From Flavobacteriales bacterium (GTDB taxonomy: Bacteria > Bacteroidota > Bacteroidia > Flavobacteriales_D > Sanyastnellaceae), in assembly GCA_027491215.1 (NCBI GenBank), contig JAIXWP010000058.1, positions 1 to 35,867 of the forward strand: a stretch of DNA of 35,867 bases, read 5' to 3'. Below are positions 157-7,856 of this stretch, piece by piece. The notes beneath the pieces are model-generated. The model saw nothing but the letters and a program-made list of their open reading frames with translations. It had not been told where the DNA came from and did no database searches. Every line of letters starts with the position of its first letter. Position 1 is the first letter of the stretch. A program made the translations under genes and the position numbers.

Positions 157-690
157 TTATGCTGTTGCGGCTTCTCCAGACATGCGTTTTAGCGCTAGTT
201 CTTTTGCGAAATCAACAAATACTTTATAAGCTTGGGTGAAGACAAAACGATCCTCAAAGTTCTTATTAACGATATTTCTACGAGCCATACCATTAATCAA
301 GGTACGACGGCCATCAGGATCCTTCAAGGCTTTATTGCTTTCAATCAAATCAATGAAAGAGCTGTTGTCAAAATAACGATCAATCTCTTCAGTAGTAAAT
401 TCATTGAACTCAAGTGCTTCAAGGAAATTTCTTCCGTCTTTGTCGAGTTCGTAGCTTAGAATAGCAATAAAAATACTCACGTCACGAGAGAAGTTTTCAC
501 TTGTCTCTTTGCTTAGCAAGTAAGCATATTCAGTTTTGAAAACGAGATCTAAGTCGAAAGAAACTTTGAAGAATTCTGCAAAGAATTTTTCATTTTCTTT
601 TAATGAATTAAAATGTTCTTCATTGCTAAGAATGAATTTACCATTCATTAATTCTTCGACAATTTGTCTATGGTTAGTTGGATACACCAT
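157..690 (-). CDS. mksE: MksE/MukE-like condensin subunit
   Basis: Encodes a 177-residue soluble acidic protein that I assign to the MukE/MksE (JetB) family. In that family a small winged-helix protein binds the kleisin subunit and controls the SMC ATPase. The assignment rests on overall sequence character (an N-terminal stretch like HRQIVEELMNGKFI, typical of the family) and on its place 2 bp after the kleisin gene mksF, with the SMC gene close by. E. coli MukE is about 230 residues, so this is a compact version. The ATG at 688-690 follows the mksF stop directly, implying translational coupling. No jetD-like nuclease gene follows; two terminator-like hairpins come next. Identity of the complex is well supported, but whether it acts in chromosome segregation or plasmid defence cannot be told from sequence. 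Confidence 0.85.
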   Translation of the reverse strand: MVYPTNHRQIVEELMNGKFILSNEEHFNSLKENEKFFAEFFKVSFDLDLVFKTEYAYLLSKETSENFSRDVSIFIAILSYELDKDGRNFLEALEFNEFTTEEIDRYFDNSSFIDLIESNKALKDPDGRRTLINGMARRNIVNKNFEDRFVFTQAYKVFVDFAKELALKRMSGEAATA

Positions 691-692
691 GA

Positions 693-1889
693 TTATAACT
701 TAATTGATGGTTCAATTTTTAATTTAGGAACAGAAAGGTGAGAGGTAGTGGTTTTGATATCTACGCGCTCATTCTTTTTAGGAAAATCAATTTGAAGTGA
801 TTCATCAAATAGAAGTCCTGTCAATGCAAAGAATTTTTCTGTTTCAATATGTTCGAAATCTTGCTGGAGGGTGGCATAGCACCAACCGAAGAAGTCATTA
901 ACTGGTAATTGACTTTGAAGTTTATTCATGAAAACTTCTCTATCAAAAATCCACTTATCAAAGTCTGCATCTGTTTCTTCGTACATCACCACTTCCGCTT
1001 GAGAGAATTGTTCGAAGAACTCTCTCACTTTGTAAAGCATGTCTTTAGCGTAAGGCATGTTTCTACTTCCTTTGAGAAGAGGTGGAGTATCCATTTTATA
1101 TGGATTTCTTAAGAACTCAATCCATCCAGTGAGAATGAGTGATTCCGTGCGGATGCGCTCAAGTAGTGGAAGAAGTTCGTTTGTCAAAATCTTTGATTGA
1201 CGAAGCAAGTCGGTGTTAGTTTGAATCAATTGAATATACAATTTTTCAAACTCCGAACGATTTGTTTCATCACCAAAATCTAATCTTCTTCTGTTGGCGT
1301 ATTCACTGATCTCCATCAATTTATTTGCAACAGATTCCGAGTGATTGACATCGAGGATTTTGTTAAGTGGAAGAATATAATAGTCAATCCAAAAAGAAGC
1401 CTTATGTACTTTTTCTCGATAATCTACGCGGTCGATGTTTGATTTAAGATCTCTTGTTTCAGCAAGCAAGCGAAAAGCGTTTCTTTCTACAAGATCTACG
1501 AATTCACGAATCTGATGCGAAAGGTTTTTGATACGCTCTTGTAGGATATCTCTATCTTGTTGCTCGTACTTTCTGATTTTCAAGAATAGATCTCCAATTG
1601 ATCCTTTGTATTTCTCGATCGTTTCTGGAAGAAGCGGTTTGAATTCGAAAAGTAGGAACTCCATCAATCTGAAATACACGTCGCGCATTTCGTAATCAGA
1701 ACCAATTGAACGAATAACGCGGTATTCGCGCAGTCGCGCATTCATGGTGTGTCCATGACGGCTGCAAATCATATCATACACCTCACGTGTAATGATACCA
1801 TCGGTGCTTTGGTACTCAAACAAGTCTCTGATCACATCGAAGTACGTGTGAACAAAGCTTAGGATGGTCCGTGGTTCTGCCTTTATCAT
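693..1889 (-). CDS. mksF: MksF/MukF-like kleisin subunit of condensin
   Basis: Encodes a 398-residue, mostly helical, charged protein that fits the kleisin subunit (MksF/MukF/JetA). This subunit bridges the SMC heads and recruits MksE. The first ~110 residues look like a winged-helix region (DGIITREVYDMICSRHGH around residue 31), followed by long amphipathic helices and a C-terminal part that would bind the SMC cap. Length is close to the 440 residues of E. coli MukF. It sits 15 bp after a 41-codon ORF and 2 bp before mksE, and the three are probably one transcript from a promoter at 2061-2091. Assignment comes from family character plus operon context rather than a short catalytic motif. Confidence 0.82.
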   Translation of the reverse strand: MIKAEPRTILSFVHTYFDVIRDLFEYQSTDGIITREVYDMICSRHGHTMNARLREYRVIRSIGSDYEMRDVYFRLMEFLLFEFKPLLPETIEKYKGSIGDLFLKIRKYEQQDRDILQERIKNLSHQIREFVDLVERNAFRLLAETRDLKSNIDRVDYREKVHKASFWIDYYILPLNKILDVNHSESVANKLMEISEYANRRRLDFGDETNRSEFEKLYIQLIQTNTDLLRQSKILTNELLPLLERIRTESLILTGWIEFLRNPYKMDTPPLLKGSRNMPYAKDMLYKVREFFEQFSQAEVVMYEETDADFDKWIFDREVFMNKLQSQLPVNDFFGWCYATLQQDFEHIETEKFFALTGLLFDESLQIDFPKKNERVDIKTTTSHLSVPKLKIEPSIKL

Positions 1890-1904: not shown

Positions 1905-2030
1905 TTATTCTTCTATCAAGTTGTATTTCACTTTTACCTCTGGTAATTCTGCTTCAGAAGTAGTGATATATTTTTTATAAATATCATTGCGTTCTGCAAT
2001 GACCAAGTCATTCATCTCTAGGGTGTTCAT
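1905..2030 (-). CDS. 41-codon small ORF leading the mksF-mksE operon
   Basis: Reading the minus strand, ATG at 2028-2030 opens a 41-codon frame ending with TAA at 1905-1907, 15 bp before mksF. The product begins MNTLEMNDLVIAERNDIYKK and ends VKVKYNLIEE; it is acidic, with no signal peptide or membrane segment. It lies about 27 nt downstream of the expected start site of a good promoter (2061-2091), which supports translation. The frame stays open a further 18 codons upstream without an ATG. I do not recognise a family. It may be a small condensin-associated protein, a leader peptide, or a remnant of a larger gene broken when ygiD entered the locus. Confidence 0.5.
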   Translation of the reverse strand: MNTLEMNDLVIAERNDIYKKYITTSEAELPEVKVKYNLIEE

Positions 2031-2060
2031 GTAGTAGTTAATACGGGTTATCCAAACACA

Positions 2061-2091
2061 CAAATCTATCGTTTGGTCGCTGGTTTAACAA
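2061..2091 (-). promoter_or_regulatory. promoter of the small ORF-mksF-mksE operon
   Basis: On the minus strand, TAGATTTG (complement of 2061-2068) matches the Bacteroidota -7 consensus TAnnTTTG. A TTG (complement of 2089-2091) lies 20 nt upstream as the -33 element. The -33 element is embedded in the inverted repeat AACAA-N3-TTGTT (2087-2099). The mksB promoter has the same arrangement. Confidence 0.65.
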
Positions 2092-2108
2092 CACTTGTTG
2101 ATGAATTG
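2087..2108 (-). promoter_or_regulatory. operator-like element shared with the mksB promoter (copy 1)
   Basis: The perfect inverted repeat AACAA-CAC-TTGTT (2087-2099) is followed by ATGAATTG (2101-2108). It aligns without gaps to 5863-5884 upstream of mksB, with 18 of 22 positions identical. Both copies have the same orientation and overlap the -33 element. I infer a binding site for a common regulator, or a conserved promoter module. Confidence 0.55.
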
Positions 2109-2131
2109 AGGATAACTCCAAAACATGATTT

Positions 2132-2147
2132 CTTGACCTAGGTCAAG
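2132..2147 (+). promoter_or_regulatory. 16-bp perfect palindrome upstream of ygiD
   Basis: CTTGACCTAGGTCAAG is a perfect 16-bp palindrome that ends 49 bp before the ygiD start codon. It lies upstream of a CATCTTTG sequence (2169-2176) resembling a -7 box. This size and symmetry suit a dimeric helix-turn-helix regulator. No regulator gene is adjacent, so the trans factor is unknown. Confidence 0.5.
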
Positions 2148-2196
2148 GCGAATCTTGAATTTATACCACATCTTTGTTTAGCAAAGGATTAGTTCT

Positions 2197-3075
2197 ATGA
2201 AAAGAAAGGATTTCGTCAAGTTATTAACGTTAATTCCTGTTGCAGGAGTCGCTATGAAATTAACAGATTTAGAAGCCATGGCTGCGCCAATGGCAACAAC
2301 GCCATTGATGCCTGTTATCTTCTTTGGACATGGCAGTCCAATGAATGCAATTGAGCAAAATGAGTTCACTTTGAAATGGCAAGAGCTTGCTAAAAATATT
2401 CCGCGCCCCAATGCGATTCTTTGCATCAGCGCTCACTGGGAAACACCGGGAACTTTTGTTACCGCAATGGATAAGCCTCAGACCATTCACGATTTCGGCG
2501 GATTTCCTCAAGCACTTTTTGATGTGCAATATCCTGCACCAGGATCGTCGTCATTAGTTGCTGACACGAAGGAAGTGCTCAAGCCAGTTTTGGTAGGTGA
2601 TGATTTGCAATGGGGATTGGATCATGGATGTTGGAGTGTTTTAAAACACCTCTATCCTGCAGCGGATGTGCCTGTCGTTCAGTTGAGCTTAGACTATCGC
2701 AAAAATGAGCAGTATCACTACGACCTTGCAAAACAACTTTTCGAATTGAGAAAGAAAGGATTTTTGATTGTTGGTTCGGGAAATATGGTGCACAACCTCG
2801 GCATGCTCAACTGGGGTAATATGAATAGTGCCTATGATTGGGCAATTGAGGCCAATGAAAAATTCAAAACCATCATTCAAACAAAAGATCATCAAGCATT
2901 GATGAACTATAAGTCGCTTGGAACAGCTTTCAAAAATTCTATTCCTACGCCAGAGCACTTCTGGCCATTACTCTACATCTTGGCATTGCAGGATAAAAAA
3001 GAAGAAGCGCAGTTCTTCAATGATAAAACGTTGATGGGTTCGATATCCATGACGGGAGTGATGTTTAAGTCGTAA
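2197..3075 (+). CDS. ygiD: YgiD/DODA-family extradiol dioxygenase with N-terminal extension
   Basis: Encodes a 292-residue class III extradiol ring-cleavage dioxygenase of the 4,5-DOPA dioxygenase (LigB) superfamily. Conserved histidine motifs are visible: GHGSP (H45), SAHWET (H80), IHDFGGFP (H98), LDHGCWSVL (H143), NMVHN (H199) and PEHFWPLL (H254). In E. coli YgiD the first, second and a late histidine bind the metal. The N-terminal ~30 residues (MKRKDFVKLL, a hydrophobic stretch, then Ala-rich) are an extension relative to E. coli YgiD and resemble a Tat-like or Sec-like leader, though only KR rather than RR is present. AAAGGA at 2183-2188 is a good ribosome binding site for this ATG. The gene stands alone and head-on within the mks locus. 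Substrate unknown. Confidence 0.88.
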   Translation: MKRKDFVKLLTLIPVAGVAMKLTDLEAMAAPMATTPLMPVIFFGHGSPMNAIEQNEFTLKWQELAKNIPRPNAILCISAHWETPGTFVTAMDKPQTIHDFGGFPQALFDVQYPAPGSSSLVADTKEVLKPVLVGDDLQWGLDHGCWSVLKHLYPAADVPVVQLSLDYRKNEQYHYDLAKQLFELRKKGFLIVGSGNMVHNLGMLNWGNMNSAYDWAIEANEKFKTIIQTKDHQALMNYKSLGTAFKNSIPTPEHFWPLLYILALQDKKEEAQFFNDKTLMGSISMTGVMFKS

Positions 3076-3094
3076 TATTTTTTTATAGAAAATA

Positions 3095-3124
3095 AAAAAG
3101 GCTGTCAATGTTGACAGCCTTTTT
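3095..3124. terminator. bidirectional terminator between ygiD and mksB
   Basis: AAAAAGGCTGTCAA (3095-3108) pairs perfectly with TTGACAGCCTTTTT (3111-3124). A-runs and T-runs on the two sides allow termination in both directions. It sits between the convergent 3' ends of ygiD (stop at 3075) and mksB (stop at 3141). Confidence 0.9.
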
Positions 3125-3140
3125 ATTATTCATTTTGCGA

Positions 3141-5795
3141 TTACAGATTCGTGAGTTCTTCTCTGCGTACCGCGTGTTGTTTGTCGTTAAGATTAATCTT
3201 GCCCTTGCTTCTAAAGATGAAGTAGTACTTGCTAAATCCATCGTATGGCTGAGGAGCTGCGAAGATTGGAATAAAGTGGTGCTCTTTACAGAACTGAACC
3301 AACTGTGGTCTGTTGTGCTCGTCAATTGTACCAATCTCATCGATGAACAATGCAATTCTATTCTCTTCGCTGCTGATCGCAAGACGGTTGATGATAGACA
3401 TTACAATTACCAAACGAATCATTCTATCTGTACCATCTGATTCCACTTGCTCTTTCAAGTCAACGCGCTTCACTGTGCCTTTCACATTCAAGTGAAGTTC
3501 GATGTCAAACAAGTCTGTGAAATCAACGGACTTTCCGCTGTCAAGATATTGGTTAAGAATCTTGAGGTCTTCTCCTGATTCAAATTCAAATGCTAGCTGA
3601 GAAGAAAGATTTTCAATCGATGCGATGCGCTCTAATTCATAAAGCACTTTCTTATTATCTACCAATTCGATTTTCAATGACTCGATGTTCGAAATGCGAG
3701 TTCTAGCAAGGCTTTCGTTGAATCTGTTGTAAACGAATGTTTTGAATTCTTCGTAGCGTTTTCTCAAGTTGTATGCAGGGTTTGCAAACTGTGTTGAGAT
3801 ACTACCAAGAAGTCCTTCGATACTTCTTTCTTTATCGTTGATACATGCGATTTCATCTTCGATGAATTTGATGAACTCCGTTTCGTCAGCGATGGCAGAG
3901 TTTGTTTTGAATCTCAATTGATCGAATGATCGATCTTTTGATGCTTTCAAGGTTTCTCTGTCTACGTTAGCAAGGCGAATCTTCGCATAGATTTCATCGA
4001 GTGATTCAGTGGTTTCATACTCCGTTGGAGTGATACCGAACATTTCGATTTCTTGTTTGCGCTTTTTCAACTCAATGATACGCTCTTCATTTTTGCGAGT
4101 ATCCTCGCGAAGGGTATCAAGCAATGTAGATTTCTCTGCGATTTCTTTCTTGAGTTTTTTCAAATCATCTTCCAGACGATCGCGCTCGTTTTTCATCGCG
4201 CGAAGCTCTGTTCCAAGCTCACCAACCGTTTCTTCTAGCTGTGGCTTTGTGTCAATTTTCTTGAGCTTATCTTTTACTACATCAATATCAGAAAGCACTT
4301 TCTCAAGTTCCTTTCTTGTTTTATCGATATGAAGAGATACTGCCCAAAGTTTTTCGAGTTCAGTTTTTTCTTTTTTCAGTTCAGCAAGCTCATCTTTCAA
4401 TGCTTTTACTGAAGGCACATCGCGAAGCTCAAACTTCTTTGGAAGTTCAATTTCTCCATCAAAGATTTTAAGCGTAGTTCCTGCTTTGGTCACTTTCTTT
4501 TTCACCAACTTGTCTGGCATTGCAGCGAAGTCAGGGGAGAAGATGGTGTTGAGGATTTTACGCGTATCGTCTTTATCAGTGATGTGCTGAATCAACTGAT
4601 TATCGTAGTTCTTGATTTGAGCTTCGAGCTTATTACATTCACCATCCAATTTAGAAAGCTTGCCTTCTAATTGTTTACCGTTGAGGTTTTGATTCTCAAC
4701 CATGGTGATTCTAACTTCCGTTTCTCTACGCTTCGCGTCCAGATTGAGAAGTGATTCTTGAAGGAATTTCTTGTCTTCATAGCTATTGATAAGATCGAGC
4801 TGGGTTTGAAGCGCGATAAATTCTTTCTCGCGAATTTCAATTTCTGTTTCTTTCTTACCAATCTCACGGTTCAATTCTTCTTGACGAGGCTTGAACTTCT
4901 CATTGACAACTACAAGCGTAGTTTGATAGGTCTTTTCTTTTTCAAGTCTTGAACTATCTAGCTCATTGATGACGCCTTGATATTGTTTTTCAAAAGCATA
5001 AACCAGATCACTAACGATGCGGTTTTTTGCTTTATATAAATTCACTACTTCACGGAATTCTTCGAAGTCTTTTTGGATTGACTTAATCACACGAATCTCG
5101 TCATTGATACGCACGAGATCGTTTATGTCCTTTTTATTTTTCTGAGAAAAATTAATTCCTTCGTTCTCTCTGTTATCTGCGATAATGAGCGATTCTTTCA
5201 ATGATTTATTCGTGATCAATTTTGAATTGATCAAGTAGCGATAAATCTTTGAGAAGTTATTGCTCAATCCGTCGGTACGCACGTTGTCTTCCAACCAGAT
5301 TACCGCTTCATTGCGGCGTCCACGTTGGTAAACCGTGTTGAAGACTTCTGACTTACTCTTGAAAAGATAAAGCTCAACGGCTTCTTTTTCAAGTTTCTCT
5401 TGAACTTCTTCCCAACGGCGAATACGTTGCTGCTGACCATCTTTTTTAAAGAAATAGTCATGGTTGTATTCACCAGTGATACGATAGTATTCCAATTCAC
5501 CTTCGCTATCACGTTTAACCATGATGCAGTAGTTCGAACCTTTTTTGATTTCGAATACGATATAGCTTTGGTTGTGTGTAGGGAAGTAGTGGTGGATGGT
5601 TTCCTTATCACCTCGGCGTTGACCAGAGAATGACATTTTGCTACCATCTACAACGAATAGGAAGTTGAGCGTATAAATAAGCGTCGATTTTCCGACGTTG
5701 TTTGGACCAACAAGTTGAATTGAGTCACAATCGTCAAGGCGCATTTCTGCGTTGACGTATGTGCTCGTGTTAATTCCAATGATGCGTGTGATCAT
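3141..5795 (-). CDS. mksB: MksB/MukB-like SMC ATPase of condensin, short form
   Basis: Encodes an 884-residue SMC-type ATPase. The N-terminal head has a Walker A motif GPNNVGKST (residues 30-38). Two long coiled-coil stretches (about 225-415 and 455-600, rich in E, K, L) flank a short hinge-like segment (about 420-455). The C-terminal head has a signature-like SDGT (786-789) and Walker B IALFIDEIGTID (814-825, catalytic D819/E820). This order matches MukB/MksB/JetC. At 884 residues it is far shorter than E. coli MukB (about 1,480), so the arms should be short. It has its own promoter (5837-5867) and shares a promoter element with the mksF-mksE unit 3.8 kb away, which argues that the separated genes still make one complex. 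Confidence 0.9.
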   Translation of the reverse strand: MITRIIGINTSTYVNAEMRLDDCDSIQLVGPNNVGKSTLIYTLNFLFVVDGSKMSFSGQRRGDKETIHHYFPTHNQSYIVFEIKKGSNYCIMVKRDSEGELEYYRITGEYNHDYFFKKDGQQQRIRRWEEVQEKLEKEAVELYLFKSKSEVFNTVYQRGRRNEAVIWLEDNVRTDGLSNNFSKIYRYLINSKLITNKSLKESLIIADNRENEGINFSQKNKKDINDLVRINDEIRVIKSIQKDFEEFREVVNLYKAKNRIVSDLVYAFEKQYQGVINELDSSRLEKEKTYQTTLVVVNEKFKPRQEELNREIGKKETEIEIREKEFIALQTQLDLINSYEDKKFLQESLLNLDAKRRETEVRITMVENQNLNGKQLEGKLSKLDGECNKLEAQIKNYDNQLIQHITDKDDTRKILNTIFSPDFAAMPDKLVKKKVTKAGTTLKIFDGEIELPKKFELRDVPSVKALKDELAELKKEKTELEKLWAVSLHIDKTRKELEKVLSDIDVVKDKLKKIDTKPQLEETVGELGTELRAMKNERDRLEDDLKKLKKEIAEKSTLLDTLREDTRKNEERIIELKKRKQEIEMFGITPTEYETTESLDEIYAKIRLANVDRETLKASKDRSFDQLRFKTNSAIADETEFIKFIEDEIACINDKERSIEGLLGSISTQFANPAYNLRKRYEEFKTFVYNRFNESLARTRISNIESLKIELVDNKKVLYELERIASIENLSSQLAFEFESGEDLKILNQYLDSGKSVDFTDLFDIELHLNVKGTVKRVDLKEQVESDGTDRMIRLVIVMSIINRLAISSEENRIALFIDEIGTIDEHNRPQLVQFCKEHHFIPIFAAPQPYDGFSKYYFIFRSKGKINLNDKQHAVRREELTNL

Positions 5796-5836
5796 GGTAA
5801 AATTCGTTTAGGTAATTCTAAAAAAGCGATAACACA

Positions 5837-5867
5837 CAAAGCTAACCCCCATTAATGAGGTCAACAA
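5837..5867 (-). promoter_or_regulatory. mksB promoter
   Basis: On the minus strand, TAGCTTTG (complement of 5837-5844) matches TAnnTTTG. TTG (complement of 5865-5867) lies 20 nt upstream, within AACAA-GCG-TTGTT. Spacing and layout equal those of the promoter at 2061-2091. The predicted leader is roughly 40 nt. Confidence 0.65.
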
Positions 5868-5884
5868 GCGTTGTTAATGAATTG
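5863..5884 (-). promoter_or_regulatory. operator-like element shared with the mksF promoter (copy 2)
   Basis: The perfect inverted repeat AACAA-GCG-TTGTT (5863-5875) is followed by ATGAATTG (5877-5884). Of 22 positions, 18 match the copy at 2087-2108, with all differences in the spacer or the base after the repeat. It overlaps the -33 element of mksB. Confidence 0.55.
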
Positions 5885-5902
5885 GTGAAAACTAGTGGAA
5901 GC

Positions 5903-7764: not shown

Positions 7765-7772
7765 CAAATGTA
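7765..7772 (-). promoter_or_regulatory. -7 box of the transketolase operon
   Basis: TACATTTG on the minus strand is a full match to TAnnTTTG, 28 nt before the transketolase N-subunit ATG. I found no well-spaced TTG upstream. Confidence 0.5.
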
Positions 7773-7856
7773 CCCTTTTCAAATGGGCTAATAGGGCAGT
7801 GTTGGAATCTTGTGGAAATCTCAAATCAAGTTGGATTCTTTTTCGTATCTTTCACT

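Follow-up and report, generated by a model that had tools for sequence, protein, structure and literature searches.

How can the parts of one protein complex be kept under common control once the operon that encodes them has been broken? The question is raised by a Flavobacteriales genome of the family Sanyastnellaceae (assembly GCA_027491215.1), in which the genes of an MksBEF-like condensin lie in two pieces, mksB and mksF-mksE, with a ygiD-like gene between them. The window is the whole stretch that we analysed, 35,867 nt of contig JAIXWP010000058.1. A first-pass annotation had noticed the same 22-bp element in front of both pieces and proposed that the two halves share one promoter module. 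Our analysis upholds this proposal: the element belongs to a module that stands before mksB in 23/23 relatives tested and before the detached mksF-mksE in at least two lineages, and that is nearly specific to mks genes.

Results

Two copies of one module in the window

A pattern search recovered the element on the minus strand at 2087-2108 and 5863-5884, as CAATTCAT-C-AACAAGTGTTGTT and CAATTCAT-T-AACAACGCTTGTT, with 18/22 positions identical as annotated. It also confirmed that both copies overlap a -33 TTG and that a TAnnTTTG box (2061-2068 and 5837-5844) lies exactly 20 nt downstream of this TTG and 31 nt downstream of the AACA start. The likeness reaches past the 22 bp, with TAG[A/C]TTTGTGTGTT in both copies 31 nt after the AACA start and 33/52 bases identical overall. 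When up to 3 mismatches are allowed, the window holds only 2 matches, both exact (shuffles give a mean of 0.19, and 2/100 reach 2). The two window copies are likewise the only exact matches in the 3.17-Mb genome, where 8 further places appear at 3 mismatches versus 6 for a reversed control pattern at the same tolerance. The first-pass annotation had noticed the element at no other promoter of the window; the pattern indeed has no other match there, although the transketolase promoter at 7765-7818 is a looser relative.

To describe the module beyond this window we used R1, a sequence-only covariance model built from 16 relatives' mksB promoters, the window excluded. The parts of the two copies are listed below, with the TAnnTTTG box at -12 to -5 as in PMC9723704.

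5831..5893, minus strand: P1, predicted mksB promoter module (R1, whole genome: 42.3 bits, E=1.5e-10)
5883..5891, minus strand: P1 distal box TTTTCACCA, a TTWTCCNCA variant at about -59 to -51 (letters and column conservation)
5863..5875, minus strand: P1 AACAA-N3-TTGTT, containing AACA and the -33 CTTG (sequence)
5837..5844, minus strand: P1 -7 box TAGCTTTG, predicted transcription start at about 5832 (sequence, alignment)
2055..2117, minus strand: P2, second copy of the module, upstream of a small open reading frame (sORF), mksF and mksE (R1, whole genome: 31 bits, E=4.9e-7)
2107..2115, minus strand: P2 distal box TTATCCTCA (sequence)
2087..2099, minus strand: P2 AACAA-N3-TTGTT, containing AACA and the -33 TTG (sequence)
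2061..2068, minus strand: P2 -7 box TAGATTTG, predicted start at about 2056, 26 nt upstream of the sORF (sequence)

R1 detects both copies in the whole genome without having been trained on the window. In this search, in which 150/1612 first-look candidates were scored, the other 7 sites reported up to E=10 are all partial with E of at least 0.06, and no further full-length site was reported.

Conservation among relatives

MksB relatives were collected in two sets: 36 loci from named contigs, nearly all of them metagenome assemblies of Flavobacteriales and other Bacteroidota, and 114 genomes of this family, counting that of the window, of which 26 carry MksB and 25 carry MksF. AACA-N27-TAnnTTT is found in 25/25 upstream regions tested, namely those of 23/23 relatives' mksB together with P1 and P2; L017, L035, L036 and G026 (mksB start missing) and an outgroup of 12 loci with ~50% MksB identity stand outside this count. 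The complete module spans ~63 bp and consists of a TTWTCCNCA box, ATYAACA, CTTG and TAnnTTTG, the last exactly 31 nt from AACA. Across 18 non-redundant copies the conserved columns read TT[AT]TCC[CT]CA, ATTCAT[TC]AACA, CTT[GT] and TA[GC]nTTTG, with GTT near the predicted start. Some variation is seen: the distance from box to AACA is 1 base shorter in genus g3, the base after the invariant TAnnTTT (25/25) is G in most copies and A in genus g6, and CTT[GT], present in most relatives, is lost in the P2 of G027. In the 12 distant relatives R1 finds no module at the promoter, and one weak partial match elsewhere.

Six contigs titled Chryseobacterium gleum (L013, L014, L021, L022, L034 and L042) carry mks loci that fall among other Flavobacteriales, in different genus groups, and these titles may be wrong.

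Specificity across genomes

The upstream element, written as TTWTCCNCAN{3,4}ATNNACANNNCTT, has 30 matches in 29 of the 114 family genomes, versus 0 for the reversed control: mksB is the downstream gene in 19, a detached mksF in 1 (G031) and a deoxynucleoside kinase (dNK) gene of genus g21 in 10. For the full architecture, TWTCCNCAN{4,8}RACAN{27}TANNTTTG, 30 matches were obtained in 399 genomes of the order versus 11 for the control. Within the family the count is 23 versus 2, comprising 18 mksB, 3 detached mksF (the window, G031 and G027) and 2 transketolase promoters; outside the family it is 7 versus 9, and these matches are due to chance. Both patterns are so strict that some true copies escape them. 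P1, with its box TTTTCACCA, is missed by both, the upstream-element pattern also misses P2 and the P2 of G027, and the full-architecture pattern misses the g6 copies, which read TTTA. The module neither lacks conservation in close relatives nor occurs at many unrelated promoters, which are the two outcomes that would have spoken against the original proposal.

Seventeen weak partial R1 sites within the family were inspected; no recurrent downstream gene was found among them except for orthologous sites within g21.

Split and contiguous operons

Among the 25 family genomes with MksF, 20 have a contiguous mksB-sORF-mksF-mksE operon and 4 are split (the window, G031, G026 and G027); in G033 the locus is cut at contig ends and appears contiguous. 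In G031, G026 and G027, mksB is followed by a terminator-like hairpin, judged by eye, and by other genes. G039, of the same genus as the window genome and with an MksB 91% identical, has a contiguous operon without ygiD between mksB and mksF.

The second copy of the module follows this division. R1 finds a site upstream of the detached mksF in 3/3 assayable split genomes (the window, G031 and G027; G026 is cut there), and in the mksB-mksF gap of 0/20 contiguous operons (E up to 0.5; 39 sources, 518 kb). Such a partition has a probability of 1/1771 if the relatives are counted as independent. When the split state is mapped on the MksB tree, 3 changes are needed, of which well-supported branches force at least 2, and G031 and G026/G027 could share one event. 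The contiguous operon is probably the ancestral state, because the outgroup loci are contiguous wherever the junction can be read, except for a 782-nt gap in L041.

GGACGC...GCGTCC hairpins occur in the mksB-mksF gaps of genus g12 (L010, L013 and L303), apparently as a dispersed palindromic repeat.

The same architecture at dNK and transketolase promoters

We examined 50 dNK upstream regions (the 30 best-scoring loci and 20 selected genomes, out of 110 that have a kinase match; G082 is mostly masked and G024 short). In 24 of them [AG]AC[AG] precedes TAnnTT by exactly 31 nt, and every other offset occurs at most 4 times. Complete box and spacing are present in 12 regions and the box alone is kept in 3 more, together 10/13 in g21 and 5/5 in g18. 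The g21 and g18 loci with the element include L135, L247 and L256, most have the 31-nt spacing, and the identity of the kinase was confirmed with Pfam and PDB on one g21 locus.

The looser match in the window is the following.

7765..7818, minus strand: transketolase promoter, TTTCCACA-N7-AACA-N27-TACATTTG

The only other in-family match of the full architecture outside mks, in G005, is at a transketolase gene too. In 66 other promoters of the loci, AACA or GACA at 31 nt occurs in 4 and other offsets at most twice each; the 4 comprise 2 transketolase promoters, 1 site chosen by the model itself at a gene that we take to be purH-like, and 1 other. As the 31-nt offset is found in 4/66 other promoters versus 24/50 dNK regions, we ruled out that the anchor is a general promoter feature. 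The element is thus common to mks and dNK, perhaps also to transketolase. The earlier idea of a locus-specific operator survives in part: the module precedes mks genes in all relatives tested, but strict specificity is not supported because dNK promoters (10 in g21, 5 in g18) and 2 transketolase promoters share the architecture.

A small open reading frame upstream of mksF

An open reading frame of 33-42 codons lies between mksB (or P2) and mksF in 23/23 genomes examined, of the 25 with MksF; its start codons were picked by hand. Most of the products end in a EEVKVKYNLIEE-like C-terminal motif, which is weakly kept in G027 and G082, and in the g3 and g6 loci read the frame extends 4 or 8 nt into mksF. 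Nonsynonymous differences are less frequent per site than synonymous ones (pN versus pS): 0.062 versus 0.204 in g3 (21 pairs, ratio 0.30), 0.151 versus 0.653 in g12 (6 pairs, ratio 0.23) and 0.316 versus 0.688 in g6 (1 pair, ratio 0.46). In the split genomes (the window, G031 and G027) the sORF stays with mksF. It has no Pfam match, and the short mksB-mksF gaps of the outgroup loci read contain no such frame. Our guess is that the product is an accessory subunit of the complex.

Genes of the window locus

The genes around the two modules are as follows.

3141..5795, minus strand: mksB, SMC-like ATPase of 884 aa with Walker A GPNNVGKST and FIDEIGTID, named from its context with MksE
3095..3124, both strands: two-way intrinsic-terminator-like hairpin in the mksB/ygiD interval, stem of 13 pairs, with a T tail on either strand
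2197..3075, plus strand: ygiD-like 4,5-DOPA-extradiol-dioxygenase between the mks halves (NCBIfam NF007914, E=6.2e-91)
1905..2030, minus strand: sORF of 41 aa upstream of mksF (a frame of 33-42 aa stands at this position in relatives)
693..1889, minus strand: mksF, kleisin-like, 398 aa (position beside MksE; fold search on a low-confidence model)
157..690, minus strand: mksE (Pfam PF21980 MksE, E=8.4e-20, above cut-off)

The assignment to an SMC-like ATPase is consistent with Walker A and B motifs, GPNNxGKST and FIDE, that are invariant across 12 aligned MksB proteins; against Pfam, MksB yields weak P-loop matches only, all below cut-off. MksF matches no Pfam family above cut-off, and PDB sequence searches with MksB and MksF returned nothing informative. 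In a fold search with MksF, ranks 1-3 are taken by the JetABCD core chain E and by MukE-MukF chains, with a best E of 1.2e-3 from a model whose predicted local distance difference test (pLDDT) score is 58. With regard to a possible MksG nuclease, as in MksBEFG plasmid defence, the genes downstream of mksE vary among the loci listed. Since the ygiD-like gene and the two-way terminator-like hairpin lie between the halves, one transcript spanning mksB and mksF-mksE seems unlikely.

No homologue in the family, not even in the same genus, is more than 59% identical to the ygiD-like dioxygenase, and a ygiD homologue lies directly upstream of mksB in two other genomes (G032 and G036). A ygiD-like gene is found next to mks more than once, possibly through transfer. 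Between P2 and ygiD, at 2132-2147, there is a perfect 16-bp palindrome, CTTGACCTAGGTCAAG, perhaps an operator of ygiD.

Discussion

A proposed conserved mks promoter with a second copy at the split

We favor, with moderate confidence, a reading in which both elements are copies of one conserved mks condensin promoter of this Flavobacteriales family. Its primary-sigma part would consist of CTTG (about -36) and TAnnTTTG (-12 to -5). Upstream of these, at fixed positions, would come TTWTCCNCA (about -59 to -51) and ATYAACA (about -46 to -40). In the ancestral state a single copy would have driven mksB-sORF-mksF-mksE; in the window genome, the ygiD-like gene and a terminator would have split mksB off, and the second promoter copy would now drive sORF-mksF-mksE. 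Because a condensin complex needs its subunits together, selection may have retained those breaks whose detached half carried the same promoter. The -59 to -40 element would be bound by a putative sequence-specific factor, most likely an activator or co-regulator, and this region is a usual site for an activator that touches RNA polymerase. An A/T-tract UP element is unlikely because the core of the upstream element is C-rich. The same putative factor would also act at the dNK promoter in related genera and probably at transketolase.

Several observations weigh against this reading. P1 itself lacks the canonical TTWTCCNCA box and has TTTTCACCA instead; the box is also missing from 3/13 g21 dNK promoters examined and from the dNK promoter of the window genome, which has AACA at 31 nt. 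There are three detached copies only, G031 and G027 may descend from one split, and the second copy of G027 is degenerate at -33 (E=0.014). P2 is 40/63 identical to the P1 of the same locus and 43/63, its best, to the P1 of G031. Since P1 does not resemble P2 more closely than other promoters do, a recent duplication within the window genome is not demonstrated, although an origin of P2 by local duplication is plausible. The upstream element could have only a passive role in a strong promoter. Finally, in 285 genomes outside the family, 33 R1 sites reach E<=0.01, where ~3 are nominally expected. From this approximately tenfold excess, the R1 E-values are too optimistic for weak matches. Among the 20 of the 33 sites that were inspected, no downstream gene recurs except in near-identical site pairs of related genomes; one site, in G119 (E=0.008), lies upstream of a frame that we take to encode DNA polymerase III alpha.

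Alternative explanations

The main rival is plain promoter duplication, in which P2 was kept simply because the detached genes needed any promoter, the upstream element belongs simply to a strong primary-sigma promoter, and no dedicated regulator is involved. The module would make a good TAnnTTTG promoter, no regulator has so far been named for it, and the second copy of G031 is nearest to its own first copy (49/63). However, any promoter would suffice in that case, yet the same one is found at every assayable split. Moreover, the core TCCNCA, conserved at a distance of 15-20 nt upstream from the -33 element, is not A/T-rich, the anchor is rare at other promoters, even with the one model-chosen site counted, and the same element recurs at dNK in other genera. 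We therefore regard this explanation as possible but rather unlikely. Duplication, which the first-pass annotation had offered as the simpler alternative, is in itself compatible with the conserved mks promoter: it explains the possible origin of the second copy, and the recurrence in split genomes suggests why it was kept.

The first-pass annotation had also suggested a dimeric regulator on the inverted repeat AACAA-N3-TTGTT over the -33 element. Both window copies do carry the perfect repeat, but the conservation of the module lies elsewhere: among 27 copies the symmetry is 5/5 in the window's two, 3-4/5 in 4 and 1-2/5 in 21. Each arm is apparently conserved for its own reason, one as AACA and the other as the CTTG of -33, and the two happen to be partly complementary. 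Since the symmetry is not kept among orthologous promoters, we reject the palindromic operator, and a dimeric regulator at this site seems very improbable.

We give equally little credence to the possibility that TTWTCCNCA is a DnaA box that couples condensin and nucleotide genes to replication initiation. The mksB copies of 8/9 g3 genomes read TTTTCCACA, which we take to be the consensus DnaA box, and both dNK and mks are replication-related. DnaA boxes, however, have A at position 7, where the other genera mostly show C or T. TTWTCCACA shows no enrichment over the reversed sequence (67 versus 60 in G000, 46 versus 81 in G046), nor does it cluster near dnaA in the stretches read. The DnaA form TTWTNCACA was rejected as a description of the module, as the g3 copies fit it and the window copies TTTTCACCA and TTATCCTCA do not. 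Chance similarity, for which only the shortness of the motif speaks, is negligible given the window-free R1 E-values, the conservation with exact spacing and the in-family excess over controls.

Tentatively, the observations on the conserved mks promoter, the dNK and transketolase promoters and the sORF may be combined. A so far undescribed regulon of this family, with a fixed two-part operator (TTWTCCNCA...ATYAACA, -59 to -40), might couple MksBEF to deoxynucleotide and pentose supply through dNK and transketolase; pressure for co-expression might re-install the promoter at each break; and the protein of 33-42 aa might be a fourth subunit or a regulator. We consider this combination a possibility, and less than an even one.

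Relation to known systems

Primary-sigma promoters of Bacteroidota carry a TTG at -33. The mks module differs from them in adding, directly upstream, a fixed C-rich element whose anchor is missing from most of the promoters examined. The window copies share the -7 box mapped in Flavobacterium psychrophilum (PMC9723704).

With regard to the genes, the locus resembles MksBEF and MksBEFG (Wadjet type I) systems in that a member of the MksE family stands next to an SMC-like ATPase and a putatively kleisin-like protein. The usual order is mksF-E-B-G according to PMC10123090; unlike it, the order here is mksB-sORF-mksF-mksE, with the extra frame of 33-42 aa and the split with its second promoter copy. 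For two gut Bacteroidetes, no known condensin homologues are reported in PMC10197239. In the literature, within the portions accessible to us, we found no description of mks regulation in Bacteroidota, of MksBEF promoters or of small proteins of the complex.

Implications

In operon-to-regulon transitions, split gene blocks are held together by a common promoter or operator. The detached mks halves likewise keep a common control element; what is particular here is that one operon has broken two or three times independently and that each time both halves have the same promoter. A common explanation for operons is that subunits have to be expressed together, and to our knowledge direct evolutionary tests of this explanation are few. 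The family thus offers a natural experiment on whether co-regulation constrains the break-up of operons, with at least two breaks and with the module at every assayable detached half and at no internal site of the 20 unbroken operons. The upstream element, ~26 bp, could serve as bait for a regulator of an SMC complex in Bacteroidota. As the same distinctive promoter stands at each piece, in the window genome as well as in its split relatives, our results suggest that both parts of this condensin need to be switched on together.

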